In this document: positions 14,343 through 33,723 of the stretch, one piece after another
Layout of the letters: the number at the start of each line of letters is the position of its first letter
How positions within the stretch are numbered: position 1 is the first letter of the stretch
Assembly (NCBI RefSeq): GCF_014803385.1
Contig: NZ_JACYFC010000005.1
Location: 124,001 to 188,000 of the forward strand
Direction: 5' to 3'
Source: Marinomonas colpomeniae
Lineage (GTDB): Bacteria; Pseudomonadota; Gammaproteobacteria; Pseudomonadales; Marinomonadaceae
Length of the DNA: 64,000 bases
Program-made: the position numbers and the translations under genes
Notes under the pieces: model-generated
Told to the model about the DNA's origin: nothing
The model's database searches: none
The model's input: only the letters and a program-made list of their open reading frames with translations

Positions 14343-15098
14343 TTAGCACGTATAATTAAGACCAAGACGACCACCATCCACGTAGATAGTCTCCCCCGTG
14401 ATATAACTGGCTTTTTCACTGGCTAAGAAAGCAACAGTATCACCAATTTCACGAGGCGAGCCCACACGGCCTAATGGTGTTCGACTTAATACATTCTTCA
14501 TCGCTTCAGGGTTTGAGTTAACACCAGCCATCATTTCAGTATCAATGGAACCTGGCCCTACTGCATTCACTCGAATACCATTTTTAGCAAGAGCTAAAGC
14601 GGCTACTTTTGTAAGCTGCATAACACCACCTTTCGATGAGCAGTAAGCAGCAATACTAGGAATAGCAACTCGTGCATTAACAGAACTCATATTCACAATC
14701 GAGCCATGGATCTTATTTTCTACCATGGTTTTTGCTGCGCGCTGTAGTGCAATGAAAGTACCCGTTAAGTTAACATCAATAACCTTGCGAAATTGCGCTT
14801 CAGTTAATTCTAGAAAATCACCTGGATTGGCAATACCAGCATTATTAACCAGCACACTAACAGGACCGTGTTCTGCTTCAATACGATCAAACATGGCTAG
14901 GATTTGTTCTGATTCGCCCATATCACAATGGTACGCTGCGGCACCATTACCTATCTTTTTAATCGACTCAGCCATCACATCATCTTTTATATCGGCCAAT
15001 ATGATAGTAAACCCATCTTCTGCTAATGCTTCAGCACAAGCCAATCCAATTCCTTGAGCACCACCCGTAATTAACGCTATTTTTTTTGCATTTGTCAT
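14343..15098 (-). CDS. Short-chain dehydrogenase/reductase (SDR family)
   Basis: A classical 251-residue SDR. The Rossmann glycine motif is TGGAQGIG (residues 11-18), NNAG follows near 88-91, and the active-site pattern has Ser in NMSSVNAR and YCSSK with the catalytic Tyr/Lys. It ends with GETIYVDGGRLG, the usual FabG-like C-terminus. It is last in the minus-strand operon with hyuB, hyuA and the FAD oxidoreductase (28-base gap to hyuB), so it probably oxidises or reduces an alcohol/ketone intermediate of that pathway. Substrate unknown. Confidence 0.92.
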   Translation of the reverse strand: MTNAKKIALITGGAQGIGLACAEALAEDGFTIILADIKDDVMAESIKKIGNGAAAYHCDMGESEQILAMFDRIEAEHGPVSVLVNNAGIANPGDFLELTEAQFRKVIDVNLTGTFIALQRAAKTMVENKIHGSIVNMSSVNARVAIPSIAAYCSSKGGVMQLTKVAALALAKNGIRVNAVGPGSIDTEMMAGVNSNPEAMKNVLSRTPLGRVGSPREIGDTVAFLASEKASYITGETIYVDGGRLGLNYTC

Positions 15099-16774: not shown

Positions 16775-18868
16775 TTACACAGCCTCCATTGTCTTTTTAT
16801 TCACCAGCAACATAGATTTATCATCTTGTGCGACAAGGGTATAACCCGATGTGACGACCGTTGATGTTTCATCTTCAACAATCACAGCAGGGCCTGAAAC
16901 CGCATCACCTGGAGAAAGAGAATCACGTTGTATTTCACTAGCAGTAACAAATTTTCGTAACGCAGCATCAAAGAATTCACGTGTTTTAGTGACGTCAACT
17001 TGTGAACCAGAGCGGCGCAAAGCAATAGGCGTGGATGGCTCCAATTTAGAGGCCACAGTAATTGACCAGTTAGTAATTTCAATACCTAAACCATCAATGG
17101 TTCGGCCAAATAATTTATGGTAACCCGTTTCAAATTTTTCACGGAAAACATCCACATCGGCATCAACATAATCCTTGTAGGAGATATCAACACCAATTTC
17201 ACCACCCTGTCCGGTATAACGCATGAAGGCTTGAACCGTTGTTGTCGTTTCTATTTCACCAGCACCACGTTCAACAAAAGCCAACGCCTCTGCTCTTAAT
17301 TCACTTAACAATTGATTAATGCGCTCAGGATCAAAGTTATTTAAACGTTGATACATACCTTTTGTTGCTTCATAAGAGAAAGGCGCATTCAAAAAGCCGA
17401 TAGCAGAACCAACACCGGCACCGGGTGGAATAATCAAATAATCCACGTCCAGTTTTTCACACAAACGACAGGCGTGTAGTGGCGCACCACCACCAAAAGC
17501 AATCATTGCGAAGTTTGAAATTTCTTTGCCGTTTTCGACTGTATGCACTCGTGCCGCATTCGCCATATTTTCATCAACTACTTCAGTAACACCAAAAGCC
17601 GCTTGCTCTTCGTTTAAGTCTGCTTTAGAAGCCACCTTTTGACGCATAGCTTCTTTCGCCATCGGAACAGACAGCTTAATTTCACCACCTGCAAATAAGT
17701 CGGGATCTAAACGACCCAATAGCAAATTAGCATCGGTTACTGTTGGGTGTTCACCACCTCTTTGATAACAAGCAGGGCCCGGTTCAGAACCAGCAGATTT
17801 TGGTCCAACACGAATTTGTCTCATATCGTCTACATGTGCGATAGAACCACCGCCCGCTCCAATTTCAACCATTTCAACAACCGGTGTTGAAAGCGGCATT
17901 CCTGAGCCTTTCGCAAAACGATAAGTACGAGCGACTTCAAACGTATTGGCTGTTTTAGGTTTTCCACCTTCGATAAGACAAATCTTCGCCGTTGTGCCAC
18001 CCATATCAAACGACACAACTTGGTTTTCGCCATAACTACTGGCAAATTTAGCCGCAAAAATAGCACCGCCAGCTGGACCTGATTCAAGCAATCGAACAGG
18101 AAATTCAGATGCTGTATCAACACTGATAAGACCACCAGCGGAATGCATCATGAAGACAGGACAGCTAATGCCTATTTCGATAAGACGAGTCACCAAACGA
18201 CCTAGGTATTCAGAAACTTGTGGACGTACATAAGCATTGGCAATAACGGTATTGAAACGCTGAAACTCTCGCATTTGAGGCGATACGTGACTGGAAATAG
18301 AGACACAAAGCTCTGGTGCAGCCGCTTCAAACGCTTTCTGCACTTGAACTTCGTGAATGTCATTCGTATAGGAATGGACAAAACCAACAGCAACGGCTTC
18401 ATAGCCTTCTGCAATAATGTCTTTTACTAATGCATTTAATTCATTTTGATCAATCTTGGTAAGAACTTCACCTTCCGCACTAATGCGCTCTTTTAATGTA
18501 TAGCGATCTGTACGCTTAACCAAAGGTGTCGGTAACGATAAATTCAAATCATATTGTTCGAATCGATTCTCTGTACGCATTTCAACAACATCTCGAAAAC
18601 CGTCTGTTGTAATAAAAGCAGTACGAGCGCCACGACGTTCAATCAATGAGTTGGTGACTAATGTTGTACCGTGAATAACAGTAGTGATTTCTTTTACATC
18701 AATGCCTGCACGCTTACACACTAGATGAATGCCATCAAGAATCGCTTGCTCTGGTTGCAAGTAATTTGTCAGCACCTTTCCAGTATATAGTGCTCCGCTA
18801 AGATCCAAAGCAACATCAGTAAAGGTGCCACCAATGTCTACCCCTACTCGCACATTGTTTTGCGCCAT
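16775..18868 (-). CDS. hyuA: Hydantoinase A / oxoprolinase-type ATPase subunit
   Basis: A 697-residue HyuA subunit. The N-terminal actin-like fold begins VGVDIGGTFTDVALD (phosphate loop), and the second phosphate motif is SFDMGGTTAKICLIEGG. MVEIGAGGGSIAHVD and the GPKSAGSEPGPACYQRGG segment are family hallmarks. It phosphorylates the substrate carbonyl for hydrolysis or carboxylation carried out with HyuB. It lies 26 bases after the FAD oxidoreductase in one operon. Candidate substrates are hydantoins, 5-oxoproline or a ketone. Confidence 0.92.
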   Translation of the reverse strand: MAQNNVRVGVDIGGTFTDVALDLSGALYTGKVLTNYLQPEQAILDGIHLVCKRAGIDVKEITTVIHGTTLVTNSLIERRGARTAFITTDGFRDVVEMRTENRFEQYDLNLSLPTPLVKRTDRYTLKERISAEGEVLTKIDQNELNALVKDIIAEGYEAVAVGFVHSYTNDIHEVQVQKAFEAAAPELCVSISSHVSPQMREFQRFNTVIANAYVRPQVSEYLGRLVTRLIEIGISCPVFMMHSAGGLISVDTASEFPVRLLESGPAGGAIFAAKFASSYGENQVVSFDMGGTTAKICLIEGGKPKTANTFEVARTYRFAKGSGMPLSTPVVEMVEIGAGGGSIAHVDDMRQIRVGPKSAGSEPGPACYQRGGEHPTVTDANLLLGRLDPDLFAGGEIKLSVPMAKEAMRQKVASKADLNEEQAAFGVTEVVDENMANAARVHTVENGKEISNFAMIAFGGGAPLHACRLCEKLDVDYLIIPPGAGVGSAIGFLNAPFSYEATKGMYQRLNNFDPERINQLLSELRAEALAFVERGAGEIETTTTVQAFMRYTGQGGEIGVDISYKDYVDADVDVFREKFETGYHKLFGRTIDGLGIEITNWSITVASKLEPSTPIALRRSGSQVDVTKTREFFDAALRKFVTASEIQRDSLSPGDAVSGPAVIVEDETSTVVTSGYTLVAQDDKSMLLVNKKTMEAV

Positions 18869-18894: not shown

Positions 18895-20187
18895 TTAAAT
18901 ACTTTTATAACGGCGCCATGCTTTAAAGCAGCCTTCATACACTGGCTCACGAATAAAGGCACCAAGGTCTTTTTTCATCGTTGTGACTGGCAGCATAATT
19001 TCTTGCTCTGGCGTACCTGTCAATAATTGCGCCATGGCTTGTCCGCAAGCCGTTCCCGTTGTAATTCCACGACCGTTATAACCTATTGGTGTGTACAAGC
19101 CAGGAGCTGGATTATGGATATGAGGTAAATGGTCTGGTGTCAGCGCCATTTTACCGTGCCATGATTTTTCAAATTTCACTGTCCCAAGAAAAGGAAACAT
19201 TTTATTAATCTGTTTCTGAGCCCAAGACTCTGAAGCTGAGTCATTTTTTCCAGCCAATTTACCCATGCTGCCAATAATTAATCGTCCAAATTTATCTTTC
19301 CGAATGGAAAACATCACCAAGCCAGTATCCCAAACGCTTTGTTCTTCTGGCAAGATTTTATCGGCCAAATCACCAAGAGGCTCTGTCGCTACTTGATAAA
19401 AATGAATAGAGGTAAAGGTTTGTTTTAAACCTGGCCACAGATCATCCGTATAAGCATTAGTTGCAATAATCACTTTATTAGCAGTTACTGTGCCACGATC
19501 TGTTTCAATCAGCCATTTATCTCCAACTTGACTGAGTTTTTGTGCTCGTGTTTCAGAATGAATTGTTGCTCCAGAGGCCATGGCGGCTTCGGCAAGGCCT
19601 TGTGCGTATCCCATTGGGTTTATTGTTCCTGCTTGAGGATCAAGCAAACCACCATAAAAACGCGGCGTGCCTATTTTTTCTTCTGCCTCACGTGCACTTA
19701 AAAGCTTCACATCACGTCCTCGACGCTGCCATTCTTGTGCACGGGCGGCAAGTTCTTTATAGCCTGCAGCTGAATGCGCCGCATGAATAGTGCCATTACG
19801 TGTGGCTTCACATTGCATATTGAAACGTTCAATTAATGAAAAAACAGTATCTGGTGCCTTTCCCATAGCATCAAGGAAACGATTAGCAACTCTTTCCCCT
19901 AATACAGTACGGACATCTTGTGGCGGCAGCCAAATACCAGGATTAACCATGCCACAATTTCGACCTGAACCACCAAACCCTACTTTTTCTCCTTCAAGAA
20001 CTAAACACTCAACACCTTTTTCTGCCAAATGTAACGCTGTTGATGAACCAGTGTATCCACCACCGATAATCGCAACGTCTGTAACCTTATCACCGTCTAA
20101 AGGTATTGCTGTAGGAGCGACTGGTGCAGATATATCCCACAAAGAAATTGCATACTGTGTCGAGCCCAATACTGCGCCTCTATTCAT
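18895..20187 (-). CDS. FAD-dependent amine/amino-acid oxidoreductase (DadA/PuuB-like)
   Basis: A 430-residue DAO-fold flavoprotein. The dinucleotide-binding motif is VAIIGGGYTGSSTALHLAEKG (residues about 36-56), followed by GFGGSGRNCGMVNPG, resembling gamma-glutamylputrescine oxidase and sarcosine oxidase-type enzymes. A C-terminal GYNGRGITTGTACG completes the FAD site. The start at 20187 is preferred over the longer open frame because AGGTGG lies just upstream. It is the first gene of the operon with hyuA-hyuB-SDR, so it may oxidise the N-substituted amino acid released by the hydantoinase; that coupling is inference. Confidence 0.88.
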   Translation of the reverse strand: MNRGAVLGSTQYAISLWDISAPVAPTAIPLDGDKVTDVAIIGGGYTGSSTALHLAEKGVECLVLEGEKVGFGGSGRNCGMVNPGIWLPPQDVRTVLGERVANRFLDAMGKAPDTVFSLIERFNMQCEATRNGTIHAAHSAAGYKELAARAQEWQRRGRDVKLLSAREAEEKIGTPRFYGGLLDPQAGTINPMGYAQGLAEAAMASGATIHSETRAQKLSQVGDKWLIETDRGTVTANKVIIATNAYTDDLWPGLKQTFTSIHFYQVATEPLGDLADKILPEEQSVWDTGLVMFSIRKDKFGRLIIGSMGKLAGKNDSASESWAQKQINKMFPFLGTVKFEKSWHGKMALTPDHLPHIHNPAPGLYTPIGYNGRGITTGTACGQAMAQLLTGTPEQEIMLPVTTMKKDLGAFIREPVYEGCFKAWRRYKSI

Positions 20188-20512
20188 ACTTACCACCTGA
20201 ATTAATGTTTCTATATGCAGAACAATCATATCAACATACAAAACATTATCTTAGTTTTTAATAAAAATCTACTGCCCTAAAACAAATTTCTCGATCAATT
20301 CAATTTTTTTAGTTTTAGGTCAAACCAATTTTGGAAATAAAACTATAAACATGGAAAAGCGCTCATTTTTTTATAAAAATGAGTCATATACTGAGAGATA
20401 CGCTATTGAGTTATAAACAAATAACGATGAAAAATGCTACTTAGGTAAATGAAATATACGCTTTTGTGAATCAGTCAAAGACGTCATCACACGGTAATAA
20501 AGTGTCACTCTA
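20188..20512. other. Intergenic region upstream of the FAD-hyuAB-SDR operon
   Basis: This 325-base AT-rich gap must hold the minus-strand promoter of the hyu operon and the end of the ATPase operon transcript. The only structure I can see is a short AT-rich inverted repeat, CTCATTTTT (20362-20370) with AAAAATGAG (20375-20383). No clear promoter or operator was found. Confidence 0.3.
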
Positions 20513-21277
20513 TTAATGATTTAGAATTTGACTCAAAAACGTTTTCGCTCTTTCTGATTGAGGGTTATCAAAAAACGCTTGTGGTGAGTTTTCTTCGATA
20601 ATTTGTCCTGCATCCATAAAGATCACTCGATCAGCCACTTTACGGGCAAAACCCATTTCATGGGTAACACATAACATTGTCATTCCTGTCTCAGCCAAAC
20701 TCACCATGACATCTAGCACTTCAGCGATCATTTCAGGATCTAAAGCCGAGGTAGGCTCATCAAAAAGCATAATGGAAGGATTCATACACAAAGAACGAGC
20801 AATCGCGACACGTTGTTGTTGGCCGCCAGATAATTGGCCTGGAAATTTATCCGCTTGATTATCAATACACACTTTCTTCAAATACGCCATTGCGGCACCT
20901 TCAGCATCAACTTTTGAGAGTCCGCGAACCAACATAGGCGCTAAAGTACAGTTATCTAAAACCGTCATATGAGGAAATAGGTTAAAGTGTTGAAAGCACA
21001 TACCAACATCTTTTCGGATGGATTGGATATTGGAGAGGTTCCCATTTAGTTGTGTTCCAAGCACATTGATGTCGCCAGCTTGATGCTCTTCCAAATGATT
21101 AAGACAGCGAATCATCGTAGACTTCCCTGAACCCGATGGCCCGCAAATGACAATTCTTTCGCCTTTTTTAACCTTTAAATTTACATCTTTTAAAACATGA
21201 AAATCGCCATACCACTTATTCATATCCGTAATAGAAATGGCGATTTCTTCAGGGGAAGTATTTGATATTGTATTCAT
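20513..21277 (-). CDS. Amino-acid ABC transporter ATP-binding protein (AapP-like)
   Basis: A 254-residue polar amino-acid transporter ATPase. Walker A is GPSGSGKST (46-54), the signature LSGGQQQ begins at 148, Walker B is [13 protein letters not shown] from 168, and the switch His is in VTHEMGF. No cognate permease lies in the same operon. The AapJ-AapQ-AapM-like genes at 24587-27882, on the other strand, lack an ATPase, so this is very probably their missing subunit. It follows the C-S lyase and VOC genes on the minus strand. A 12-bp tandem repeat lies in its leader. Confidence 0.9.
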
Positions 21278-21293
21278 TTGCCTATCCTGCCTT

Positions 21294-21324
21294 GTTAAAT
21301 CAAATGTTAAATCAAATGTTAAAT
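21294..21324 (-). repeat. 12-bp tandem repeat, about 2.6 copies, in the leader of the ATPase gene
   Basis: On the plus strand GTTAAATCAAAT occurs at 21294-21305 and 21306-21317, then GTTAAAT at 21318-21324. It lies 17-47 bases upstream of the ATPase start codon on the minus strand, between it and the VOC gene. Confidence 0.9.
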
Positions 21325-21373
21325 TTTTACTGTCTTATAACGGTTTCTTAGAACCAAAAAATGAGTACTTTAT

Positions 21374-22021
21374 TTATTTAAGGAAAACCGTATCGCCACT
21401 TGGCACTTTCATATTAAAAGAGACACTTTTCTGATCACCTTTAATGATGGAAGCAAGTTGAGAAACACCGAGTGCTTGAAGAACGTCTTCTAGCTTTTCA
21501 GGATCAGGGTGAGTCAAAACAACACTTTCAAGTGTTAAGCCTAATTCCTTCATGCCTGTTGATGGGTGTGCACCTGGCGACCATTCGATAAAGGTTGGTA
21601 TTAATCCGTTTTCCGAAAGGGAGCCATCTTTAGGGATATTTAAACGCCAACTTCTCTCACCTCGAGTAAATGTGACCACTTCACCCATATCAATTGGGCT
21701 ATTCGCCATTACAGCATCAAGGTCAGTGGTACCAACAACCCAATGATAAGCGCACGCACTCTTTTTAAAACGAGCTTGAACGTGTGGATTGTCCATATCA
21801 AACCAACGAGCTCGGTTAGGCATCGGTGCGTCAGGATCCACGGAAAGAATTTCAATAAAACTTTCATTGCCAACAGGGGCAACACAGTTATGTGTGCTCA
21901 TTGCGTCATGTTTACTCGCTTTTGGTAACACAACGCCTAATATTTTTTGTAAAGCATCCATACCTTGTTCAAGGCTGTCTGCACCAATTACTATATGATC
22001 AATTTTATTTTTTACCGTCAT
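21374..22021 (-). CDS. VOC-family glyoxalase-like protein
   Basis: About 215 residues, opening KIDHIVIGADSLEQGMDAL, typical of the Glyoxalase_3-like (PF13468) group, with a second half starting around GLTLESVVLTHPDPEKLEDV. The ATG at 22021 is preferred to the GTG six bases earlier because of spacing to AGAG. It begins 23 bases after the C-S lyase stop and precedes the transporter ATPase, so it probably handles a metabolite of the same pathway, perhaps an alpha-keto or aldehyde product. Function not known. Confidence 0.8.
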   Translation of the reverse strand: MTVKNKIDHIVIGADSLEQGMDALQKILGVVLPKASKHDAMSTHNCVAPVGNESFIEILSVDPDAPMPNRARWFDMDNPHVQARFKKSACAYHWVVGTTDLDAVMANSPIDMGEVVTFTRGERSWRLNIPKDGSLSENGLIPTFIEWSPGAHPSTGMKELGLTLESVVLTHPDPEKLEDVLQALGVSQLASIIKGDQKSVSFNMKVPSGDTVFLK

Positions 22022-22044
22022 CGTCACTGTCTCTATTCAATGTA

Positions 22045-23226
22045 TTATTTAAGAAATTTAAAACCCGTTTGCAAATCGCTGATCAAGGAAGAACTGTCTT
22101 CAAGACCAATATTGAATCGAACAACGGGTCCTACTGAATTCCAACTTGTCGCTGTTCTAAATGGCGTTGGATCAACGGGAAGAATTAAACTTTCAAATCC
22201 TCCCCAACTTAAACCTATGCCAAACATTTCTAAGCTGTTGATCATGGCTCGTATTTTATTTTCTGTCCCTGATCGAAAAACCACACTAAACAAACCTGCT
22301 ACGCCGTTAAAATCACGTTGCCAAAATTCATGCCCTGGACAATCTTGATGGGCGGGGTGCAGAATGCGTTCGACTTCTGGTTGCTGCTCTAACCATTCAA
22401 TACACTGTAAAGTACTCTCAGCATGTTGACGTAATCGAACAGACAAGGTTCGCAAGCCACGTAACGCAAGAAAAACATCGTTTGCCCCTGCGCGATCGCC
22501 AATCGACAAGCTCATTTTTCTGACGGTTTGATAATTCTCTTCTGACGTAGCAACAATCAAACCCAGCATGGCATCAGAATGTCCACTGATGTACTTCGAA
22601 CCAGAATGCACAACCACATCGACACCTAATAGCAGAGGCTGACAAAGCAAAGGCGTCGCCCACGTTCCATCCAAAATAGTGACAACACTGGCTTGTTTTG
22701 CAACTTGTGCAATGGCAGGAATATCAGGTACTTCAAATGTTGCTGAACCAGGCGCTTCGAAAAAGACAACATGAGTATTGTCTTGAATCAGCCCTGCTAA
22801 CGCTTCACCCATCATAGGATCGAAATACGTAACACTGACGCCATACTGTTTGAGCACATTGTCACAAAAAGCACGCGTAGGGCCGTAAACGGTATCGGCG
22901 ACAAGGACATGGGAACCGGCATTCAAAAATGCCATTAAAGAAACAACGCAGGCAGTCAAACCAGAAGATACCGCTACACAGCCTGCTCCCTGTTCAAGCT
23001 CAGCCATCATACTTTCTAATTCAAAGGTGGCTGGATTTCCATAACGACCGTAATACAAGGTGCCTTTCTGATAGCGAGAATCCCGAGCTTGCTCAAATTC
23101 TTCTAGAGTATTGAACAACATGGTAGACGCCTGATGCATTGGCAAATTTACCGATCTACCATTACTTACTGTATCGCGTCCCAAATGAATCAGTGCATTT
23201 GTTAAATTTTCATTATTTTTTTTCAA
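22045..23226 (-). CDS. PLP-dependent C-S lyase, cystathionine beta-lyase (MetC) type
   Basis: A Cys/Met-metabolism PLP enzyme. The TTG at 23226 is chosen as start because GAAGGA sits eight bases before it and no suitable ATG exists; the product is then 393 residues, against 395 for E. coli MetC. The PLP lysine is K211 in HSGSKYISGHSDAML (E. coli K210), the pyridine-N aspartate is D186 in ILDGTWATP, and RYGNPAT and SSGLTA bind phosphate. Such enzymes release pyruvate, ammonia and a thiol from cystathionine, cystine or S-alkylcysteines. Location in an operon with an amino-acid transporter ATPase, next to an IclR gene, suggests a catabolic C-S lyase rather than methionine biosynthesis; that is inference. 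Confidence 0.9.
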   Translation of the reverse strand: MKKNNENLTNALIHLGRDTVSNGRSVNLPMHQASTMLFNTLEEFEQARDSRYQKGTLYYGRYGNPATFELESMMAELEQGAGCVAVSSGLTACVVSLMAFLNAGSHVLVADTVYGPTRAFCDNVLKQYGVSVTYFDPMMGEALAGLIQDNTHVVFFEAPGSATFEVPDIPAIAQVAKQASVVTILDGTWATPLLCQPLLLGVDVVVHSGSKYISGHSDAMLGLIVATSEENYQTVRKMSLSIGDRAGANDVFLALRGLRTLSVRLRQHAESTLQCIEWLEQQPEVERILHPAHQDCPGHEFWQRDFNGVAGLFSVVFRSGTENKIRAMINSLEMFGIGLSWGGFESLILPVDPTPFRTATSWNSVGPVVRFNIGLEDSSSLISDLQTGFKFLK

Positions 23227-23580
23227 TGCCAATATCCTTCTTCGATGTTGATGCACTTTAAAACACAACGACAAATCGTGTCAATATTCGGAACAAAAGT
23301 TTTAATATGAGAACCGATTTTGTGCATTTTTAAATACACTGCACCATAAAGGTGTCTTTATACGATGCATCCTTGGCGTTTCAGCTTTAATTCAACATAC
23401 GATCTCTTTATACTGACTGCATCTGAACACTTATAAATTTGGGCACACAAAAGCAAAAGATGGCATTGACCATCTGAAGTATTGATTCTATCAACAGTGT
23501 TTTTCTCGTTTTCAGTCGGTATTCCAATGAGTTACCTATACTGACGATTAATGTTTTATTAAAACTAAGGTTAAAAATTC
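23227..23580. promoter_or_regulatory. Divergent control region between C-S lyase and IclR genes
   Basis: A 354-base gap between divergently read genes, AT-rich, so it must carry promoters for both. I see a small hairpin CACC-ATAAA-GGTG near 23341-23353 and a weak, interrupted inverted repeat (TCAGT at 23512, ACTGA at 23540). Neither is strong enough to call an IclR operator. Confidence 0.3.
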
Positions 23581-24333
23581 ATGACTGGAAGGGTAGATTC
23601 AACACTGTCAAAAGGACTGTCCGTTATTGAAGCGCTTGCAGCAGCAGACAAAGGAATAGGCGTATCCGAGCTGGCACGTAACCTAAACCTTACGAAATCT
23701 AATACATTTAGACTGTTACAGACCTTAATTATTCATGGATATGTAAAACAAGATCAAAATAAGCAGTACTCAGCGACAATGAAGGCATGGAAAATTGGCC
23801 AAATGATCATGGAAAAGCTTGATCTACCGCGCCTATCGATTAGTCAGATGCAATACCTTTCTAGCATTACTGGTGAAGCGGTTTATTTGTCAGTACTTGA
23901 TGGTTTATCTACTCTTTATATTGAAAAGGTAGAAAGCACAAAAGCAATCCGAACCTACACTCCCAAAGGCGGTAATGCGCCTATTCATTGTGTTGCAACG
24001 GGGAAAGCATTACTGGCTTTTAACTACGATACCCTAAGAGAAAAGTTAATCGGCAACCTTGGTTCTTACACAGACAAAACCATCACAACGATAGAAGCGC
24101 TGGACGTTGAAGTCGACAACATTAGAGAGCGTGGTGTTGCCATTGATTTAGGAGAATACCGAGCGGAAGTATTGAGTATTGCCGCGCCTGTCTTCTCTTC
24201 AAACAATGAAGCCATTGCTTCAATTGGTATTTCTGCCCCAGCAATCAACCTATCCGAAGAAGACATTGAGAAGATCATACATACCGTAAAACAGGCAGCA
24301 CAGAGCCTGAGCAGTACACTCAAAGACATCTAA
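23581..24333 (+). CDS. IclR-family transcriptional regulator
   Basis: A 250-residue regulator. The N-terminal winged helix (residues 5-65, GVSELARNLNLTKSNTFRLL) is followed by an IclR effector domain (about 75-245) with YLSVLDGLSTLYIEKVES, the PIHCVATGKALLA block and RGVAIDLGEYRAEVLSIAAPVF. It lies between the minus-strand lyase operon and the plus-strand transporter operon, and is the natural regulator of both. A terminator follows it. The effector is unknown. Confidence 0.93.
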   Translation: MTGRVDSTLSKGLSVIEALAAADKGIGVSELARNLNLTKSNTFRLLQTLIIHGYVKQDQNKQYSATMKAWKIGQMIMEKLDLPRLSISQMQYLSSITGEAVYLSVLDGLSTLYIEKVESTKAIRTYTPKGGNAPIHCVATGKALLAFNYDTLREKLIGNLGSYTDKTITTIEALDVEVDNIRERGVAIDLGEYRAEVLSIAAPVFSSNNEAIASIGISAPAINLSEEDIEKIIHTVKQAAQSLSSTLKDI

Positions 24334-24352
24334 GCACCAATTTCCTCGCTAT

Positions 24353-24384
24353 AAAAAAACCACCTCATTTCGGGTGGTTTTTTT
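24353..24384 (+). terminator. Terminator after iclR gene
   Basis: Seven A plus CCACC (24353-24364) pair with GGTGG plus seven T (24373-24384), with an 8-base loop. Confidence 0.92.
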
Positions 24385-24586
24385 ATTTTCTAACCGCCCT
24401 CCATAAAATTCAAAACCTTTTATCTTAAATAATAAACATAGGGTTTGCTCTAGGCTCACTCAGATTTAGTCAATCGATATTGCTTGATAACGACAAGAAC
24501 AACATTTTAATTTGACATACATCACGAGTTATTATATCACTAAATAGAACAAGCATTTCACTATATGAAACAAAAGGGATGATAAA

Positions 24587-25627
24587 ATGGTAAAAATACT
24601 AAAACCAGTCTTAACTACCGCCGTTGCTATATGTTCAATTTCAGCGACTCAAATGTCATTTGCAGAAAGTCCTACAGTTAAAACCATTCAAGATCGAGAC
24701 ACTATGTTGTGTAGTGGTCATAACGGAAGTTATTTTGGTTTTGTCGAAGTAAACGATAAAAATGAATGGAAAGGATTGGATATAGATATTTGTCACGCTG
24801 TGACTACCGCCATTTTAGGCGATCCAAGCAAAGCTAAAATCATTCCTCTAAGTTGGGCACAACGTTTCCCTGCTTTGCAATCAGGTGATGTGGATATCAT
24901 TATCAAAGCGACTGGTTGGACAATGGGAAGGGATACAGAATTAGGTTTGCAATTTAGTATGCCTTACTTTTTTGGTGGCACTCAGATGATGGCAAAAGCT
25001 GAACTTGGCGTCACCGAAGCGAAAGATCTAGAAGGCGGCACCATTTGTGTTGAAGCAGGTACAACGAACGAGCGCTTAATCGCAGATAAAATGGCGACTC
25101 TTGGCGTTGACTACAACATTGTTTCTTACGAAAAAAATTCCGAAGTCATGGCAGCTTATCAATCAGGTCGTTGTGATGCTTTTGGTGGTTGGGGCCCAAG
25201 CCTAGCCGTTCTTCGCTCTAGTCAAATGGGTAACCCAAACGACAACGTTATTCTTAGCGACACATTATCCAACGAACCTATTGCCGCCGCGATGAGACAA
25301 GGTGACGAAGGCTTTGTGGATACCGTCAACTGGACTCTAGCCGCTTTATTGCTCGCAGAAGAACATGGTATTACCCAAGCTAACGTTGACGACATGGCGG
25401 CGAACCCAACAAACCCAACGGTTGCACGTTTATTGGGCAGTACGCCAGGTATTGGTGAAAGACTCAACTTACGTGAAACATGGGCTAAAGACGTGATCAA
25501 GGCAGTCGGGAACTTCTCTGAAATCTATGAGCGTAACTTAGGCATGAATTCTCCTTATAAGCTAGAGCGTGGCTTAAATAATCTTTGGAGTCATGGTGGT
25601 TTGCTTTACGCGCCAATTTTAGACTAA
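24587..25627 (+). CDS. General amino-acid ABC transporter substrate-binding protein (AapJ-like)
   Basis: Periplasmic binding protein of 346 residues with a signal peptide (MVKILKPVLTTAVAICSISA, cleavage near residue 26 after MSFA). Mature family hallmarks are LCSGHNGSYFGF, WKGLDIDICHAV, DVDIIIKATGWTMGRDTELGLQF, and the long C-terminal extension ending GGLLYAPI, which separates AapJ/BztA proteins from short binding proteins. The ribosome site AAGGGATG precedes ATG 24587. It heads an operon with two permeases and a molybdoenzyme. Ligand unknown: AapJ homologues accept broad L-amino acids. Confidence 0.9.
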   Translation: MVKILKPVLTTAVAICSISATQMSFAESPTVKTIQDRDTMLCSGHNGSYFGFVEVNDKNEWKGLDIDICHAVTTAILGDPSKAKIIPLSWAQRFPALQSGDVDIIIKATGWTMGRDTELGLQFSMPYFFGGTQMMAKAELGVTEAKDLEGGTICVEAGTTNERLIADKMATLGVDYNIVSYEKNSEVMAAYQSGRCDAFGGWGPSLAVLRSSQMGNPNDNVILSDTLSNEPIAAAMRQGDEGFVDTVNWTLAALLLAEEHGITQANVDDMAANPTNPTVARLLGSTPGIGERLNLRETWAKDVIKAVGNFSEIYERNLGMNSPYKLERGLNNLWSHGGLLYAPILD

Positions 25628-25655
25628 ATCCAACCGGTCAAGGGGCGAGTAAATA

Positions 25656-26777
25656 ATGTCTACCTATATAAAGAAAACGTTTAACGCCAAAAATCAACTC
25701 ATTCAAGTTGCATTTCTCTTGGCCGTCATTGTGATCATTGCGGGCGCTTATATTAGCGCCCGTGATAATTTAGCCGAGTTAGGTATATCGAGTGGATTCG
25801 ACTTTTTAAATCGAGCTACAGGTTGGGGTTATGGTTTTTCTCTGTTAGAAACATCGATCGAAGATCCATATAAATGGACTTTATTTTCTGGCTTCATAAA
25901 CACCTTATTTCTAGGATCAATCACAATTATTTTGCCCACTGCCCTTGGTTTTATTATTGGTACAGCAAGGGACTCATACAACATCACAGTACAAGCAATG
26001 GCAACCTTGTTTATCCAAACTTTCCGTAACATCCCATTAATCCTACAGCTGGTATTTTGGTATGCCGTTTTAATCCATATGCCAAGTCCACGACAAGCAC
26101 ATGCTTTGTTTGATGTCGCCTACTTATCAAATCGAGGCATGATGATACCGAGCCTAAAAATATCGCTGTTTATGCCGATCATCTTGGTTCTAATTCTTAC
26201 GTTTTATTGGACATTCAAAAACAAAATCAATGCGCTGAAAACATTACCTTCATTTTGGGTATATGGCATTCTGTTGGTAGGTACTGCTCTCTATTTACTG
26301 AGTGTTGAAGGCCAGCTTTTATCCATACCGAACCTGAAAGGTTTACGGTTTGTAGGGGGCACAACTATTCCTATTGAATTAATCACCATGATTATCAGTA
26401 CCTCACTTTACGGTGCTGCCTACATTGCTGAAGTCGTTCGAGGCGGATTGAATGAAGTCCCTAAAGGGTTAGTCGAGGCAGGAAAATCATTAGGGTTGAG
26501 TGAGCGCATGATCTGGTTAAGAATAAAGATGCCTATGGCACTCCGCACTATCATTCCACCACTGGGGAACCAATGGGTATTTATGATGAAAGCCACTACC
26601 GTTGGTGTTGCCATCGGCTTTAGCGATCTCTTTATGCTTATTTCCACTTCAATCACTCAATCCGGACAAACGCTCGAATTAATCGCTATTTTAATGGGCT
26701 CTTTCCTGTTAATAAACTTTTCTCTTGCTCAGTTTATTAACTATTTAAACTCTCGAATGACATTAAAAGGACATTAA
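25656..26777 (+). CDS. General amino-acid ABC transporter permease (AapQ-like)
   Basis: A 373-residue inner-membrane permease with the extended N-terminal half typical of AapQ/BztB. Hydrophobic segments occur at about 16-35, 85-105, 120-140, 165-190, 200-215, 245-260 and 335-365. The EAA loop reads EAGKSLGLSERMIWLRIKMP. RNIPLILQLVFWY is a family signature. The ribosome site AAGGGGCGAG is strong. It ends one base before the next permease gene. Confidence 0.92.
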   Translation: MSTYIKKTFNAKNQLIQVAFLLAVIVIIAGAYISARDNLAELGISSGFDFLNRATGWGYGFSLLETSIEDPYKWTLFSGFINTLFLGSITIILPTALGFIIGTARDSYNITVQAMATLFIQTFRNIPLILQLVFWYAVLIHMPSPRQAHALFDVAYLSNRGMMIPSLKISLFMPIILVLILTFYWTFKNKINALKTLPSFWVYGILLVGTALYLLSVEGQLLSIPNLKGLRFVGGTTIPIELITMIISTSLYGAAYIAEVVRGGLNEVPKGLVEAGKSLGLSERMIWLRIKMPMALRTIIPPLGNQWVFMMKATTVGVAIGFSDLFMLISTSITQSGQTLELIAILMGSFLLINFSLAQFINYLNSRMTLKGH

Positions 26778-26778
26778 T

Positions 26779-27882
26779 ATGAGCACTCGAACTCACTCTG
26801 CCTTAGCCCATAAATCAACCTTCAATGTCATCACGAAACGTCTCTTACATTTTTTAAAAACAAGAGCTTTTTTCTCAAAAACAGACAGTATCATTAGTCT
26901 TTGTTTTTTTACTGCCTTGTTCGTTATTATTTATACCATTCTAAGCTGGGCAATATTTGATGCGGTGTGGACAAAGGAAAATGTTGCACAATGTCAGGAT
27001 GCAGTAGGTGCCTGTTGGTCTGTTATTGATGCTCGCTACCGGTTGATCATGTTTGGCCTGTATCCATATGATCTCCATTGGCGGCCCAGTCTGGCATGCC
27101 TAACAATTGTCTCCACCATCATACTTTCTTGCCTACCAAAATTATGGGAGGCAAAACGCCTTTCTTTGCTTTGGCTTGTGGGGTTTACGACTTTTTTCCT
27201 ACTAATGGAAGGCAGTTTGCTTGGGCTTAAACAAGTGACAACCGATCAATGGGGCGGACTGGCATTAACCCTTTTTCTGTTTGCCTCCGTTGTTTTAGTT
27301 GGCATGCCAATGGGGTTAGGTCTGGCATTAGCTCGTCGCTCTAAACTTCCATTAATACGTTATGGCGCGTCCATTTTTATTGATTTGATACGATCTTTGC
27401 CTTTATTGACCACTTTATTTATCGCTGCTGTAGTGATGCCTATTGTCCTTCCAGACTGGATGACTGGTGATAAAATTTGGCGTGTCATTATCGCTTTTTC
27501 ACTGTTCTTTGCCTGTTATCAAGCAGAGGTTTTTCGGGGCGGTTTTCAAGCCATTCCTAAAGGACAATTCGAAGCGGGCGATGCATTAGGGTTAAGCTAT
27601 TTTCAAATTTTAAGTCACATCATAATGCCACAAGTATTTCGCCATTCACTACCTGGCACCATTAATATGGTCGTGATCACCTTTAAAGAAACCGCTATTG
27701 TTATCATCATCGGGTTTTTCGATGTACTCGCCTCGGCAAATGCGGCATTCGGTAGCGGTGAATGGGCGCCGTATTATATGGAAGTCTATGCGTTCGTTGC
27801 GCTTATTTATTGGAGCTTTATTTTTTCACTCAGTCAGTACGGTGCTTATTTGAAAAAGAGAATGCGCATCGCCATTCATTAA
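26779..27882 (+). CDS. General amino-acid ABC transporter permease (AapM-like)
   Basis: Partner permease of 367 residues. Early hydrophobic segment about 40-60, then the conserved FIDLIRSLPLLTTLFIAAVV, and an EAA loop EAGDALGLSYFQILSHIIMP. The pair AapQ-AapM is coupled with one base between them. Both need an ATPase, supplied most likely by the gene at 20513-21277. Confidence 0.92.
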   Translation: MSTRTHSALAHKSTFNVITKRLLHFLKTRAFFSKTDSIISLCFFTALFVIIYTILSWAIFDAVWTKENVAQCQDAVGACWSVIDARYRLIMFGLYPYDLHWRPSLACLTIVSTIILSCLPKLWEAKRLSLLWLVGFTTFFLLMEGSLLGLKQVTTDQWGGLALTLFLFASVVLVGMPMGLGLALARRSKLPLIRYGASIFIDLIRSLPLLTTLFIAAVVMPIVLPDWMTGDKIWRVIIAFSLFFACYQAEVFRGGFQAIPKGQFEAGDALGLSYFQILSHIIMPQVFRHSLPGTINMVVITFKETAIVIIIGFFDVLASANAAFGSGEWAPYYMEVYAFVALIYWSFIFSLSQYGAYLKKRMRIAIH

Positions 27883-28008
27883 AATCACTCTACTTTTCTG
27901 GCGGTTTAATACTGTATGCCGTCAGAAAATATTATTCTGACTAGACAATATGTACTTCATAGAATTCCATTATCTCTGAACAATATTTTAAAAGGTGTCC
28001 ACTTTATA

Positions 28009-30309
28009 ATGAATAAAAAAACAGGCCCGCATATTACCTCTAATCATTGGGGACCAAGTGTTATTAATGTGGATGGTGAACAGCTTTCAGTCACGCCTCA
28101 TCCTGACGATCCAAACCCTTCCCGTATTAATGAAAATATTCCTGGTGCACTAAAAGGCCAATCTCGAATTCGTCATCCTGCGGTTCGAGAGAGTTATTTA
28201 AAAAATGGTCCTTTAGCGAATCAAGGTGAAAGGGGCGAAGAAAAATTCGTCGAAGTAAGCTGGGAAATGGCTTTAGACTTGATTGCCTCAGAATTAAATA
28301 GAGTGCGTGAAGATCATGGCAACCAATCCATTTTTGCGGGTTCTTATGGTTGGTCAAGTGCAGGACGTTTTCATCATGCACAAAGCCAATTAAAACGTTT
28401 TATGAATAGTATCGGCGGCTTTGTTCGCTCCGAAGGAAATTACAGTTACAACGCTGCTTTGATACTGATGCCTTATATTGTCGGTAACTTTCGAGATCAT
28501 GTGAAACAAGCCACCCGTTGGAACACAGTGAAAGATGAAGGTGAATTAGTCATTATGTTTGGCGGTATTCCCTTACGTAATACGCAGGTTTCTGGCGGTG
28601 GAATTGCTAAACATACGTTAAAAGACGATATGAAAGCATGTGTTGACGCTGGCGTTCGTTTTGTCAATTTCAGCCCTCTTAAAAACGATGCGGCTACCGA
28701 ACTAAAAGCACAATGGTTGGCGCCTCGTCCAGGGTCTGACACCGCGTTAATGATGGGAATGGCTCATACTCTGCTTGTTGAAAACCTTTACGACCAGAAT
28801 TTTATTAATAACTACACTGTTGGCTTCAAACAAGTATCTGACTATTTATTAGGTAAATCAGATGGTGTAATCAAAGACGCGAGCTGGGCTGAAAAACAAT
28901 CTGGCATACCACAAGAAGAGATTGTTAAGCTCTCCCGCGAGATGGCTTCCAAACGAACACTGCTCTGCACTGCCGTCGGTCTTCAACGAGCAGAACATGG
29001 CGAGCAACCTTTGTGGATGACGGTTCTTTTGGCGTCCATGTTAGGCCAAATTGGTTTGCCAGGGAGTGGATTTGGAATTGGTTATGGCGCAGATGCAAGC
29101 ATTGGCGTGGTCGACCGACCTATGCGTTGGCCTTCTTTTTCTCAAGGTAAAAACGCGGTAGAAGATTTTATCCCCGTCGCCATGATATCGGAGATGTTAC
29201 TGTCCCCAGGAACTCGTTATGAATACAACGGACAGACTCGCACCTTTCCTAATATTAAAATGATCTGGTGGGCAGGCGGTAATCCATTTCATCACCACCA
29301 AGATTTAAACAGATTAAGAAAAGCCTTCCAACAGCCTCAAACCATCATAGTAAATGAAATAAGTTGGACCGCTACGGCAAGGCATGCAGACATAGTCTTA
29401 CCTGTTGCCTCGACGATTGAACGAACGGACATAGGTGCCGGTACACAAGATAATTCGATCATTCCTATGCCACAGATTATTCCCACTCAATTTGAAGCAA
29501 GAACAGAGTTCGAGATTTTTACAGCGTTAGAAAAAAAACTTGGACTCAATACTGATTTCAGCCGTAAAATGACATCAGAGCAATGGTTAGAAGAAATGTG
29601 GGACTCGTTAAAAACTGAAGCCAAAAAACATGAAAGAGACTTACCTAGCCTTCAGGAATTTCTAAAAGGTGACATTATCAGTTTTGATGATCCATCACCT
29701 AAAAACGTGTTTTTAGCAGATTTTCGCAAAGACCCAAATCAATCCCCTCTTACAACACCGAGCGGAAAAATAGAACTATTTTCAGAAACGATTGCCAGCT
29801 TTCAATATGAAGACTGTCCCGGTCATCCAACTTGGTTACCGCCACGAGAATGGTTAGGCGCGGATACATCTCATTTCAGCCTACACATGATTTCAGGCCA
29901 ACCAGCAACTCGTTTACACAGTCAGCTGGATGAGGGCTCCTATTCTAAAAGTATGAAAATTCAGGGCCGTGAACCAATTTTAATGCATCCTGATGATGCA
30001 CAGGAGCGCGGTATAAAAGATGGTGATGTTGTTATCGTCTTTAACAATCGAGGACAATGCTTAGCAGGCGCAAAAATCACCCATGACATATGCAAAAATA
30101 CGGTATTTCTATGGACAGGTGCTTGGTATGACCCCAACTTAAAAAATGAAAGCCATCAAGATAGGCATGGTAATCCTAACGTCTTAACTCATGACTATCG
30201 AACCTCACGATTATCACAAGGTCCAGCGGCTCAGTCCGCATTGGTTGAGATCAAAAAACACATAGGAGAGTTGCCAATTATTGAGGCTTTTACACCGCCT
30301 ATTAGCTAG
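28009..30309 (+). CDS. Cytosolic molybdopterin S/N-oxide reductase (BisC/TorA family)
   Basis: Molybdenum bis-MGD enzyme of the DMSO reductase family. ATG 28009 is preferred (AAGGTG upstream; the longer frame adds nothing conserved), giving 766 residues, close to E. coli BisC at 777. There is no twin-arginine signal and no iron-sulfur cysteine motif, so it is a cytosolic, cluster-free reductase. SYGWSSAGRFHHAQ lies at 112-125 and the Mo-ligand serine is S146 in EGNYSYNAA. WWAGGNPFHHHQD and HADIVLPVAS are family hallmarks. BisC reduces biotin sulfoxide and methionine-S-sulfoxide, while TorA takes TMAO. It is 126 bases downstream of the amino-acid permeases, so a sulfoxide or N-oxide amino acid is a reasonable substrate guess. 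Confidence 0.9.
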   Translation: MNKKTGPHITSNHWGPSVINVDGEQLSVTPHPDDPNPSRINENIPGALKGQSRIRHPAVRESYLKNGPLANQGERGEEKFVEVSWEMALDLIASELNRVREDHGNQSIFAGSYGWSSAGRFHHAQSQLKRFMNSIGGFVRSEGNYSYNAALILMPYIVGNFRDHVKQATRWNTVKDEGELVIMFGGIPLRNTQVSGGGIAKHTLKDDMKACVDAGVRFVNFSPLKNDAATELKAQWLAPRPGSDTALMMGMAHTLLVENLYDQNFINNYTVGFKQVSDYLLGKSDGVIKDASWAEKQSGIPQEEIVKLSREMASKRTLLCTAVGLQRAEHGEQPLWMTVLLASMLGQIGLPGSGFGIGYGADASIGVVDRPMRWPSFSQGKNAVEDFIPVAMISEMLLSPGTRYEYNGQTRTFPNIKMIWWAGGNPFHHHQDLNRLRKAFQQPQTIIVNEISWTATARHADIVLPVASTIERTDIGAGTQDNSIIPMPQIIPTQFEARTEFEIFTALEKKLGLNTDFSRKMTSEQWLEEMWDSLKTEAKKHERDLPSLQEFLKGDIISFDDPSPKNVFLADFRKDPNQSPLTTPSGKIELFSETIASFQYEDCPGHPTWLPPREWLGADTSHFSLHMISGQPATRLHSQLDEGSYSKSMKIQGREPILMHPDDAQERGIKDGDVVIVFNNRGQCLAGAKITHDICKNTVFLWTGAWYDPNLKNESHQDRHGNPNVLTHDYRTSRLSQGPAAQSALVEIKKHIGELPIIEAFTPPIS

Positions 30310-30483: not shown

Positions 30484-32082
30484 TTAGCTTTGCTGGCGAA
30501 GCTTATACTTTTGAACCTTCCCGGCTGATGTTCTTGGTATTTCACCAAAATCGATTTCTTTTGGACATTTGTAGTTTGATAAACGAGATTTACAAAAGAC
30601 GATGAGCTCTCGCTCTGTCACTTCATGACCTGGTTTTAGGTGAACTAAGGCTTTTACGAGTTCACCCCATTCTTCATCTGGCTTGCCATAACACACGGCT
30701 TCGTAAACGGCTGGATGTTCATAAAGAATATTTTCAACCTCTACGCTAATCACATTTTCTCCGCCTGTGATAATGACATCCTTAAATCGGTCTTTCACTT
30801 CGATATAGCCACCTGGGTGCATCACACCGCCGTCACCACTGTAAAACCAACCATTCTTAAAGGCTTTAGCCGTTTCTTCTGGCGACTTGTAATAGCCCTG
30901 AATCACGTCATTTCCACGCATGATAATTTCACCTACGGTTTCCCCATCTGCAGGTACGTCTTCATCATTTTCATTCACCACACGCACGTAACCCGCAGTG
31001 ATATCAGGCACACCTTGACGCATTTTTAAGTTAATTCTTTCCACTTCAGATAAGCTGTCCCAAGCAGGCTGCCATTCACAAATTGTAAAAGGACCATAGG
31101 TCTCTGTCAGACCATACGCATGGTGAATCACGCCACCTCTTTTCTCCATGTCTAATAACATGCCTTTTGGTGGTGGTGCTGCAGCAACATCAATAATCAA
31201 TTTATTAGGAAAAGAAGAGATCGAATTTTCATTCATATAGCGGCTTAATCGGTGAAAAACAATCGGGGCGCCAGCCATGTGCGTGACGTTATGTTGCTGA
31301 ATAAGCGTTGATATCTCTTTAGCATCCGGCGTTGGCATACATACATTTGTTGCTCCAGTTGCGGTTGTTGTCCAAGTCCAACACCAACCATTGCAATGAA
31401 ACATCGGCAATGTCCAAAGGTTAACCGAATAAGCATCTACCTTGTGTTCAATTACATTCGCCAAAACATGCAAATACACACTACGATGCGAGTAAATACA
31501 ACCTTTTGGCATGCCCGTTGTACCGCTAGTGTAATCAATAGCAATCGGCGTATTTTCATCGTCTAAGTGTAAACGCTTATACTCATCACTAGCATGCTCT
31601 AGTAATGTTTCGTAATCCATACCTTCAATATTAGCTTTTGGTGCTTCCTGATAACTTATCACACCGTTGTTGATCAGTATGTAATGTTCGACATTAGGTA
31701 ACTTTTCCTTATCAATACGATCAGCAACCCCCATATCAACCAAGAGTACTTTCGCCTCACTCAGGTTAACTATGGTGCTGACTTCATCGGCAGAAAGACG
31801 ATAGTTGATTGCCACTATGGCAGCCCCCGTCATTGGGATACCGTAATGGGCCTCTAACATCGGGGAAAAATTTCTAGAGATAATAGCGACATGATCTCCA
31901 TTACTAATACCAAGACCTTTAAGACCATTACTGAGACGGTTAACACGATTAAAAAAATCTGCCCATGTCCAGCTTTTATCTTTTTCTATCACAGCTATTT
32001 CATTGGGCATCACCTTAGCAGTACGTTCTAAAAAGCTAAGGGGAGTAAGAGGTTCGTAGCTAGCACTTGGCATCTTAGACAT
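30484..32082 (-). CDS. Acyl-CoA synthetase (AMP-binding family)
   Basis: A 532-residue adenylate-forming ligase that activates a carboxylic acid to its CoA ester. The AMP-binding P-loop is DYTSGTTGMPKGC (about 180-192), then HAYGLTETYGPF, YSGDGGVMHPGGYIEVKDRFKD and the C-terminal catalytic lysine in PRTSAGKVQKYKL. The group covers medium-chain fatty acids and substituted propionates such as methylmercaptopropionate; specificity is not visible. It is divergent from an AraC gene. A 40-bp element about 100 bases upstream (32182-32221) is duplicated upstream of the rhodanese gene. Confidence 0.92.
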   Translation of the reverse strand: MSKMPSASYEPLTPLSFLERTAKVMPNEIAVIEKDKSWTWADFFNRVNRLSNGLKGLGISNGDHVAIISRNFSPMLEAHYGIPMTGAAIVAINYRLSADEVSTIVNLSEAKVLLVDMGVADRIDKEKLPNVEHYILINNGVISYQEAPKANIEGMDYETLLEHASDEYKRLHLDDENTPIAIDYTSGTTGMPKGCIYSHRSVYLHVLANVIEHKVDAYSVNLWTLPMFHCNGWCWTWTTTATGATNVCMPTPDAKEISTLIQQHNVTHMAGAPIVFHRLSRYMNENSISSFPNKLIIDVAAAPPPKGMLLDMEKRGGVIHHAYGLTETYGPFTICEWQPAWDSLSEVERINLKMRQGVPDITAGYVRVVNENDEDVPADGETVGEIIMRGNDVIQGYYKSPEETAKAFKNGWFYSGDGGVMHPGGYIEVKDRFKDVIITGGENVISVEVENILYEHPAVYEAVCYGKPDEEWGELVKALVHLKPGHEVTERELIVFCKSRLSNYKCPKEIDFGEIPRTSAGKVQKYKLRQQS

Positions 32083-33318: not shown

Positions 33319-33723
33319 ATGACTAAGAAACTTAAAACCGGCGTTGCCCAAATGGTTGCCAATGCTCGATCTGCCATCGAAGAAATCGATGCGAAAGACA
33401 TGCTCGATATGATTGACAATGGCGCAGTGGTAATCGTAGATATTAGAGACATTCGTGAACGTCAACGAGGCTTCATTCCTAATAGTTTTCACTGCCCTCG
33501 TGGCATGGTTGAATTTTGGGTAGACCCTGAAAGCCCTTATTACAAAGAGATTTTTGGTGAAGATAAAAAATTCATTTTTCATTGCGCTTCAGGCTGGCGA
33601 TCAGCATTAACAACACAAATATTACAAGAGATGGGCATGGATAATATTGCTCATATGAAAGACGGTTTCATGTCATGGAAAGACGCCGGTGGCACCATTG
33701 AATTTCCAGATAAGAGAAATTAA
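33319..33723 (+). CDS. Rhodanese-like (sulfurtransferase) protein
   Basis: A single-domain rhodanese of 134 residues. VVIVDIRDIRERQRGFIPNS is the conserved entry strand, and the active-site cysteine is C89 in the loop CASGWRSAL, the six-residue loop expected for persulfide transfer rather than the longer Cdc25 loop. The ending DGFMSWKDAGG is typical. Likely carries or transfers sulfane sulfur in the cytosol. It shares an operator with the acyl-CoA synthetase, suggesting a sulfur-containing acid as the common substrate; that is inference. Confidence 0.92.
   Translation: MTKKLKTGVAQMVANARSAIEEIDAKDMLDMIDNGAVVIVDIRDIRERQRGFIPNSFHCPRGMVEFWVDPESPYYKEIFGEDKKFIFHCASGWRSALTTQILQEMGMDNIAHMKDGFMSWKDAGGTIEFPDKRN

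Follow-up and report, generated by a model that had tools for sequence, protein, structure and literature searches.

A conserved gene cluster of Marinomonas colpomeniae possibly devoted to the catabolism of a cyclic sulfur imino acid S-oxide

Overall organization of the cluster

In a 64,000-nucleotide stretch of the Marinomonas colpomeniae genome (assembly GCF_014803385.1, contig NZ_JACYFC010000005.1, positions 124,001 to 188,000; hereafter the window), we found a conserved cluster of about thirteen genes that combines a polar amino-acid ATP-binding cassette transporter and a BisC-type molybdoenzyme with a C-S lyase, a putative cyclic-amide hydrolase and a pipecolate-oxidase-like enzyme. We tentatively propose, at somewhat below an even chance, that the cluster serves to degrade the S-oxide of a six-membered cyclic sulfur imino acid, with chondrine as the leading candidate. 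Chondrine, an amino acid of algae, is 1,4-thiazane-3-carboxylic acid S-oxide; in its reduced form it corresponds to pipecolate with sulfur replacing one ring carbon. The cluster is apparently undescribed; no publication on it or on chondrine catabolism was found in open-licence full text.

The preliminary description of this region had dealt with positions 20513 to 30309, and the list of open reading frames of the window contains all the genes it named, just where it had placed them. On the minus strand lie the transporter ATPase AapP (20513..21277), a VOC protein of the Glyoxalase_3 family (VOC, 21374..22027; PF13468) and a MetC-type pyridoxal 5'-phosphate (PLP) C-S beta-lyase (CSL, 22045..23274). 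The plus strand carries an IclR-family regulator assigned by its family model (23581..24333), an AapJ-type periplasmic binding protein (24587..25627), the permeases AapQ (25656..26777) and AapM (26779..27882), and BisC, a predicted cytosolic molybdenum S-oxide reductase (28009..30309). The earlier family calls hold, with the BisC match to TIGR00509 lying below its cutoff, and the family models place AapP, AapJ, AapQ and AapM in the polar amino-acid type. The longest open reading frame of BisC spans 27916-30309, and a start at 28009 seems likelier.

The unit is larger than first noted. The minus-strand gene run extends past AapP via an FAD-dependent DAO-family oxidase (DAO, 18895..20241), the large and small subunits of a predicted ATP-dependent cyclic-amide hydrolase, HyuA (16775..18868) and HyuB (15127..16773), and a short-chain dehydrogenase/reductase-type oxidoreductase (SDR, 14343..15098; Pfam adh_short_C2) down to position 14343. 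Usually a rhodanese-like sulfurtransferase is a further member, which in the window lies apart on the plus strand (33319..33723) and is an orthologue of the clustered rhodanese in other genera.

Distribution of the cluster

Among 48 Marinomonas genomes, BisC of the cluster type is present in three and the orthologous lyase (at least 76% identity) in five; a 37% lyase match with an internal stop in another genome, G038, was left out of the orthologue count. The two further BisC-bearing genomes, G003 and G041, have the gene order of the window as far as their stretches reach, which is short of SDR, and their AapP is 89% identical, compared to 65-70% in the remaining AapP-bearing clusters. The other two lyase-bearing genomes, G002 and G047, keep HyuB, HyuA, DAO, VOC, lyase and IclR at 73-92% identity and SDR at 84%. 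Their stretches contain no AapP, AapJQM or BisC, and genome-wide no BisC passes an E-value of 1e-50 and the best AapJ match is only a 39-41% paralogue. This pattern indicates that the transporter and BisC appear and disappear together as a block, and that the lyase belongs with HyuAB, DAO, SDR and VOC. In even samples of 293 genomes of the order and 394 of the phylum, VOC orthologues were found in the window genome only, and the cluster is therefore patchy.

Outside Marinomonas, the cluster recurs in Rhodobacteraceae, presumably as a result of horizontal transfer. Among 390 Rhodobacterales genomes, ten have VOC orthologues, as eight long matches at 46-59% identity and two partial ones (G637 and G652); 244 genomes pass an E-value of 1e-25, and the other listed matches, 29-38% identical, were excluded. 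The BisC clade is present in 11, counted as the matches of at least 54% identity among 20 genomes passing an E-value of 1e-240, with the next match at 49%. Both markers occur in eight genomes of seven genera, VOC only in two and BisC only in three, and 377 genomes have neither. This exceeds chance (Fisher p = 5.9e-13), with a test that takes no account of relatedness and with cut-offs chosen once the gaps in the match lists had been seen.

With identity thresholds that we set gene by gene at 40-60%, matches to all 13 scored genes were found in the window, in P. seriniphilus over two plasmids, and in the Rhodobacteraceae genomes G554, G608, G613, G590 and G656. G590 has an internal stop in BisC and an AapJ cut by the contig end, so that four of these five Rhodobacteraceae clusters are intact. 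Moreover, G699 has 12 of the 13 genes at three separated places on one chromosome, the clusters of G637 and G655 are degraded, and the lyase of G751 is truncated at a contig end. The conserved Rhodobacteraceae order is AapJ-AapQ-AapM, VOC-lyase in the opposite orientation, BisC-IclR, rhodanese again in the opposite orientation, and DAO-HyuA-HyuB-SDR-ligase-(RidA)-AapP. SDR orthologues of 69-84% identity occur in G002, G047, P. seriniphilus and six Rhodobacteraceae genomes. The window rhodanese is 58-66% identical to those of the P. seriniphilus and Rhodobacteraceae clusters, which mostly sit between IclR and DAO. A persulfide-dioxygenase-like gene adjoins VOC in G554, G613, G656, G699 and G637 (the G656 copy scores 375 of 625 bits against the Blh model) and is not seen in the G608 or G590 stretches. 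In addition, a RidA-like gene lies ahead of AapP in G554, G613, G590 and G656 (62 of 106 bits in the last), and not in G608.

Two related Rhodobacteraceae contain decaying clusters (L147:8294-15472 and L207:8597-13166), in which an AapJ remnant runs into an AapM remnant, the lyase is broken or nearly gone, and BisC is still long.

In P. seriniphilus, one plasmid carries a propionyl-CoA synthetase, SDR, HyuB, HyuA, DAO, rhodanese, IclR, lyase (58%) and VOC (58%), and a second plasmid carries BisC (62%), an ornithine-cyclodeaminase-family gene and AapJQMP. Such a split, together with the degradation part standing alone in G002 and G047 and BisC standing alone in Vibrio, would be consistent with two independent modules lying side by side, namely an SDR-HyuBA-DAO-VOC-CSL-IclR degradation operon, and a BisC with its transporter that reclaims methionine or biotin sulfoxide. 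However, both Marinomonas and the five Rhodobacteraceae clusters have the two sets of genes interleaved, in differing orders, and the Rhodobacteraceae clusters place BisC immediately next to IclR and the lyase; the VOC marker is also present in eight of the 11 BisC-clade Rhodobacterales. We thus regard two separate modules as unlikely. The IclR gene itself adjoins either the lyase or BisC in Marinomonas and these five clusters. The co-occurrence of lyase, transporter and BisC, on which the preliminary description had staked its pathway, is borne out: orthologues of lyase, VOC, IclR, AapJQM and BisC lie together in both groups of bacteria.

The BisC clade

The window BisC scores 908 bits against TIGR00509 over positions 43-795, compared to a curated cutoff of 1017.55. 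Among solved structures, it is nearest to 7l5i, which carries the label trimethylamine-N-oxide reductase and which we take to be H. influenzae MtsZ, and to the dimethyl sulfoxide (DMSO) reductases. The SYGW and NYS segments of BisC align with SYGW and DYS of the DMSO reductases and 7l5i, and presumably hold the active-site Tyr/Trp and the Mo-ligand Ser; SYGW is present in 15 of 15 clade sequences examined, of the 17 in the tree. Consistent with the preliminary description, which saw neither a twin-arginine translocation signal nor an Fe-S motif, no twin-Arg N-terminus is seen in the window BisC, and the 60 residues that start at HWG contain no Cys. Two of the 15 clade sequences (L209 and L206) have an RR pair ahead of HWG, in stretches where the start codon is uncertain.

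In a quick tree, the cluster BisC falls among 17 sequences on one side of a branch with full support (SH-like approximate likelihood ratio of 100), against 41 other BisC-like sequences; L141, L206 and L207 (internal stop) were entered as the longest open piece. The clade resembles the known BisC, MtsZ (TorZ) and DorA enzymes of TIGR00509 in its full-length similarity, the absence of a visible export signal and the aligned SYGW and NYS segments. It differs from them in forming a clade of its own below the family cutoff, and in belonging to a catabolic cluster rather than to a repair or respiratory locus.

As a control, 34 stretches of 14-20 kb around non-clade BisC relatives from the phylum search were compared. 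They contain no VOC match, one lyase (L084, 45%), one HyuA/HyuB pair (L074, 37/31%) and one DAO (L100, 40%, with an amino-acid transporter). As this control is nearly empty, the association belongs to the cluster BisC clade and not to BisC generally. A role of BisC as an isolated enzyme of ordinary methionine or biotin sulfoxide repair is weakened, since the cluster clade is both separate and linked. By its relatives, BisC would point to an S-oxide substrate, though an N-oxide is possible too.

Several neighbourhoods of BisC relatives are of note in their own right. Unlike the other clade members examined, the BisC-clade gene of Vibrio pelagius (L103:12342-17316) adjoins a folM-folE-folX-folK pterin run and has ectoine and betaine genes close by. 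In G262, of another proteobacterial family, L100:4665-11288 is a compact cluster of a pipecolate-oxidase-like DAO (303 bits), an amino-acid transporter and a different BisC (45%), and thus a grouping of BisC, cyclic-amine oxidase and transporter may recur. On a Bosea vestrisii plasmid (L106:9971-12672), a BisC relative (50%) is directly followed by a RidA-family gene. A BioY-type biotin energy-coupling factor transporter adjoins the BisC-transporter cassette of P. seriniphilus (L102:22830-24744). Biotin catabolism nevertheless seems unlikely as the function of the cluster, because the substrate of a PLP beta-lyase should be an alpha-amino acid and the predicted transporter is of the amino-acid type. 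Opine catabolism, prompted by BisC on Agrobacterium plasmids, was set aside too, the one region read showing NtaA/DmoA-type monooxygenases and a different transporter.

The altered binding site of AapJ

Alignment with 4z9n and motif comparison revealed that the binding site of the cluster AapJ is altered. At the putative amine site, all 11 of the 11 cluster copies have Trp instead of Asp, whereas Asp is present in 20 of 20 paralogues. An Arg is kept in all ten cluster copies that cover its site and in 19 of the 20 paralogues. By analogy with GlnBP-type receptors, we take this Arg to hold the carboxylate and the Asp to hold the alpha-ammonium group of the ligand. The cluster transporter has the same subunits and belongs to the same family as the general L-amino acid transporter AapJQMP, but lacks the Asp that marks the general receptor; the window genome also encodes a separate AapJ copy, 40% identical to that of the cluster. 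Judging from the receptor family, binding of an open-chain amino acid sulfoxide would probably require the Asp that is lost here.

The C-S lyase and sulfur handling

The lyase scores 434.6 bits against TIGR01324 (cystathionine beta-lyase), above the cutoff of 365.9. Its SKY lysine and the YGR, VY, SWGG and RF motifs, presumably the PLP lysine and active-site residues, are kept in 12 of 12 aligned cluster copies, the broken or truncated copies of G637, G655 and G751 being left out. The PLP-site Lys and Asp noted earlier are indeed intact: K227 and D202 of the longest open reading frame equal K211 and D186 with a start 16 codons later. MetC-type lyases accept S-alkylcysteines. Together with BisC and the rhodanese, the lyase would point to a sulfur compound, and VOC may handle the thiol product; the AlphaFold model of VOC is unusable, with a mean pLDDT (per-residue confidence) of 38.

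Among bacteria, Bacillus is known to release sulfur from S-substituted cysteines; its CmoO/CmoJ salvage of S-alkylcysteines proceeds by N-acetylation and formation of a sulfoxide with flavoenzymes (PMC10863075). The cluster would differ from this route in that the S-oxide is reduced by a molybdoenzyme and the product cut by a PLP lyase.

HyuAB and DAO

HyuA and HyuB have the Hydant_A_N, Hydantoinase_A and Hydantoinase_B domains of their family in adjacent subunits. Their top NCBIfam models are the caprolactamase subunits CapA (445 of 1000 bits) and CapB (175 of 1000 bits), respectively. These scores fall far below the equivalog cutoffs, and a substrate different from that of CapAB is therefore expected. 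In the PDB ranking for HyuA, 7hk5 (labelled N-methylhydantoinase, 1288 residues) and 6yra stand above acetone and acetophenone carboxylases. The ATP-dependent lactamase family of caprolactamase, an enzyme that requires bicarbonate, also comprises 5-oxoprolinase and the HyuAB hydantoinases. The hydrolases of this kind are stated to act, all of them, on cyclic amides (PMC8453981).

The window DAO scores 469.6 bits against NF050086 (L-pipecolate oxidase; cutoff 600), with the next model at 135.5, and this is the top model by more than 330 bits in three of three cluster copies tested (window, G608 and P. seriniphilus). By contrast, an unrelated DadA control has a top model other than pipecolate oxidase. 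Weak PDB matches of DAO include NikD, which we take to be a piperideine-2-carboxylate oxidase, and glycine oxidase scores as high. Despite its likeness to the L-pipecolate oxidase AmaA, DAO differs from the enzyme of pipecolate catabolism in its score below cutoff and in its neighbours, an S-oxide reductase, a C-S lyase and a lactamase. In addition, the gene that separates BisC from AapJ in P. seriniphilus has the delta1-pyrroline/delta1-piperideine-2-carboxylate reductase model on top (219.9 bits; cutoff 322), with a margin of only 3 bits over the general ornithine cyclodeaminase model. DAO, HyuAB and this cyclodeaminase-family gene together provide moderate hints, at the level of family likeness, of a cyclic imino acid.

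In N-methylpyrrolidone breakdown, HyuAB acts before DAO, although a search of the open-licence literature found no paper on the genes. By that order, the substrate might instead be a sulfur lactam or N-substituted ring S-oxide, in which BisC reduces the sulfur, HyuAB opens the ring first, DAO oxidizes the freed amine and the lyase frees the sulfur. The action of HyuAB-type hydrolases on cyclic amides and a receptor without the amine-binding Asp would agree with such a substrate. Nonetheless, DAO is far nearer to pipecolate oxidase than to the sarcosine or N-methyltryptophan oxidase models, and we recall no natural compound of this kind, so that a lactam substrate seems possible but rather unlikely.

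The preliminary description had proposed a shorter pathway, in which an S-alkylcysteine sulfoxide such as S-methylcysteine sulfoxide is taken up, reduced by BisC and cleaved by the lyase to pyruvate, ammonia and a thiol, with HyuAB, DAO and SDR serving elsewhere. The acceptance of S-alkylcysteines by MetC-type lyases and the conserved company of transporter, BisC-type reductase and lyase speak for it, as does the reduction of methionine and biotin sulfoxides by BisC/MtsZ (PMC5122715). The conservation of transporter, S-oxide-reductase-type molybdoenzyme and C-S lyase across classes indeed leaves S-oxide reduction and C-S cleavage as the best core reading, which remains one of family likeness. 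The substrate and the three-step scheme fare worse. S-methylcysteine sulfoxide fits poorly, because neither a ring-amide opener nor a cyclic-imino-acid oxidase is needed for it; yet HyuAB, DAO and SDR go with lyase and VOC in P. seriniphilus and the Rhodobacteraceae clusters, and also in the Marinomonas genomes in which BisC and the transporter are missing. These conserved genes, the rhodanese and the loss of the amine-binding Asp from AapJ agree better with a sulfur amino acid that is cyclic or N-blocked, and we consider an S-alkylcysteine sulfoxide quite improbable.

A putative pathway for cyclic sulfur imino acid S-oxides

For a cyclic sulfur imino acid S-oxide such as chondrine, a scheme can be drawn that would use BisC, DAO, SDR, HyuAB and the lyase once each. 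Judging from the protein families, the AapJ variant would bind the ring carboxylate without the need for a free primary amine, and AapQMP would import the compound. BisC would then reduce the sulfoxide to thiomorpholine-3-carboxylate, and DAO would oxidize the ring C-N bond to an imine or hemiaminal. More speculatively, SDR would oxidize the hemiaminal (the hydrated imine) to a lactam, or carry out another alcohol or aldehyde step. As suggested by their families, HyuAB would open the lactam with ATP to give S-carboxymethylcysteine, from which the PLP lyase would release thioglycolate, ammonia and pyruvate, with RidA, where present, deaminating 2-aminoacrylate. Finally, the thiol sulfur might be handled by VOC, the rhodanese and persulfide dioxygenase, of which persulfide dioxygenase belongs to the cluster in some Rhodobacteraceae only; this step, like the identity of the substrate, is speculative. 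G002 and G047 would be users of the reduced ring or the lactam.

Several observations weigh against this scheme, which draws solely on homology and gene neighbourhood. The NCBIfam scores of DAO, HyuA, HyuB and BisC all lie below the curated cutoffs. The pipecolate oxidase model is also on top for the non-cluster DAO of L100 (303 versus 137 bits, a gap of about 166), and the match is therefore partly a subfamily trait. The bond between BisC and lyase is loosened from both sides: of the five Marinomonas genomes that have the orthologous lyase, two retain the degradative genes but neither the cluster BisC nor its transporter, and four of the 17 BisC-clade sequences (two from Vibrio, G634 and G594) have no other cluster gene at orthologue level in the stretches read. 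Moreover, the rhodanese has no match in the stretches of G002, G003, G041 and G047, and neither a persulfide dioxygenase nor a RidA gene is part of the cluster in the window. A persulfide dioxygenase homologue is present in nine of nine Marinomonas genomes searched, with or without the cluster, and was rejected as a defining member. The scheme also does not account for what becomes of thioglycolate or for what VOC does.

If correct, the scheme would be the first genetically visible route by which chondrine, or a cyclic sulfur imino acid S-oxide close to it, is completely degraded, and one in which a molybdoenzyme strips the S-oxide and an ATP-dependent lactamase opens the thia-ring, letting a PLP lyase release the sulfur; this reading as a whole seems possible but rather unlikely. 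It would assign a function to a conserved cluster that is now annotated piecemeal, for instance as cystathionine beta-lyase, hydantoinase/oxoprolinase and FAD-binding oxidoreductase in P. seriniphilus, and a new role to BisC-type enzymes as a catabolic front end. Marine sulfur cycling would gain a path along which cyclic sulfur amino acids of algae are turned into pyruvate and inorganic sulfur, and this poorly known part of it would become testable with a handful of purified proteins and a single small ring compound.

A neighbouring acyl-CoA synthetase gene

An acyl-CoA synthetase gene (30484..32082, minus strand; top model PRK08162) adjoins BisC in the window. It is about 21% identical to the clustered PrpE-type ligase of the other genomes and non-orthologous to it, and is counted as a possible member only.

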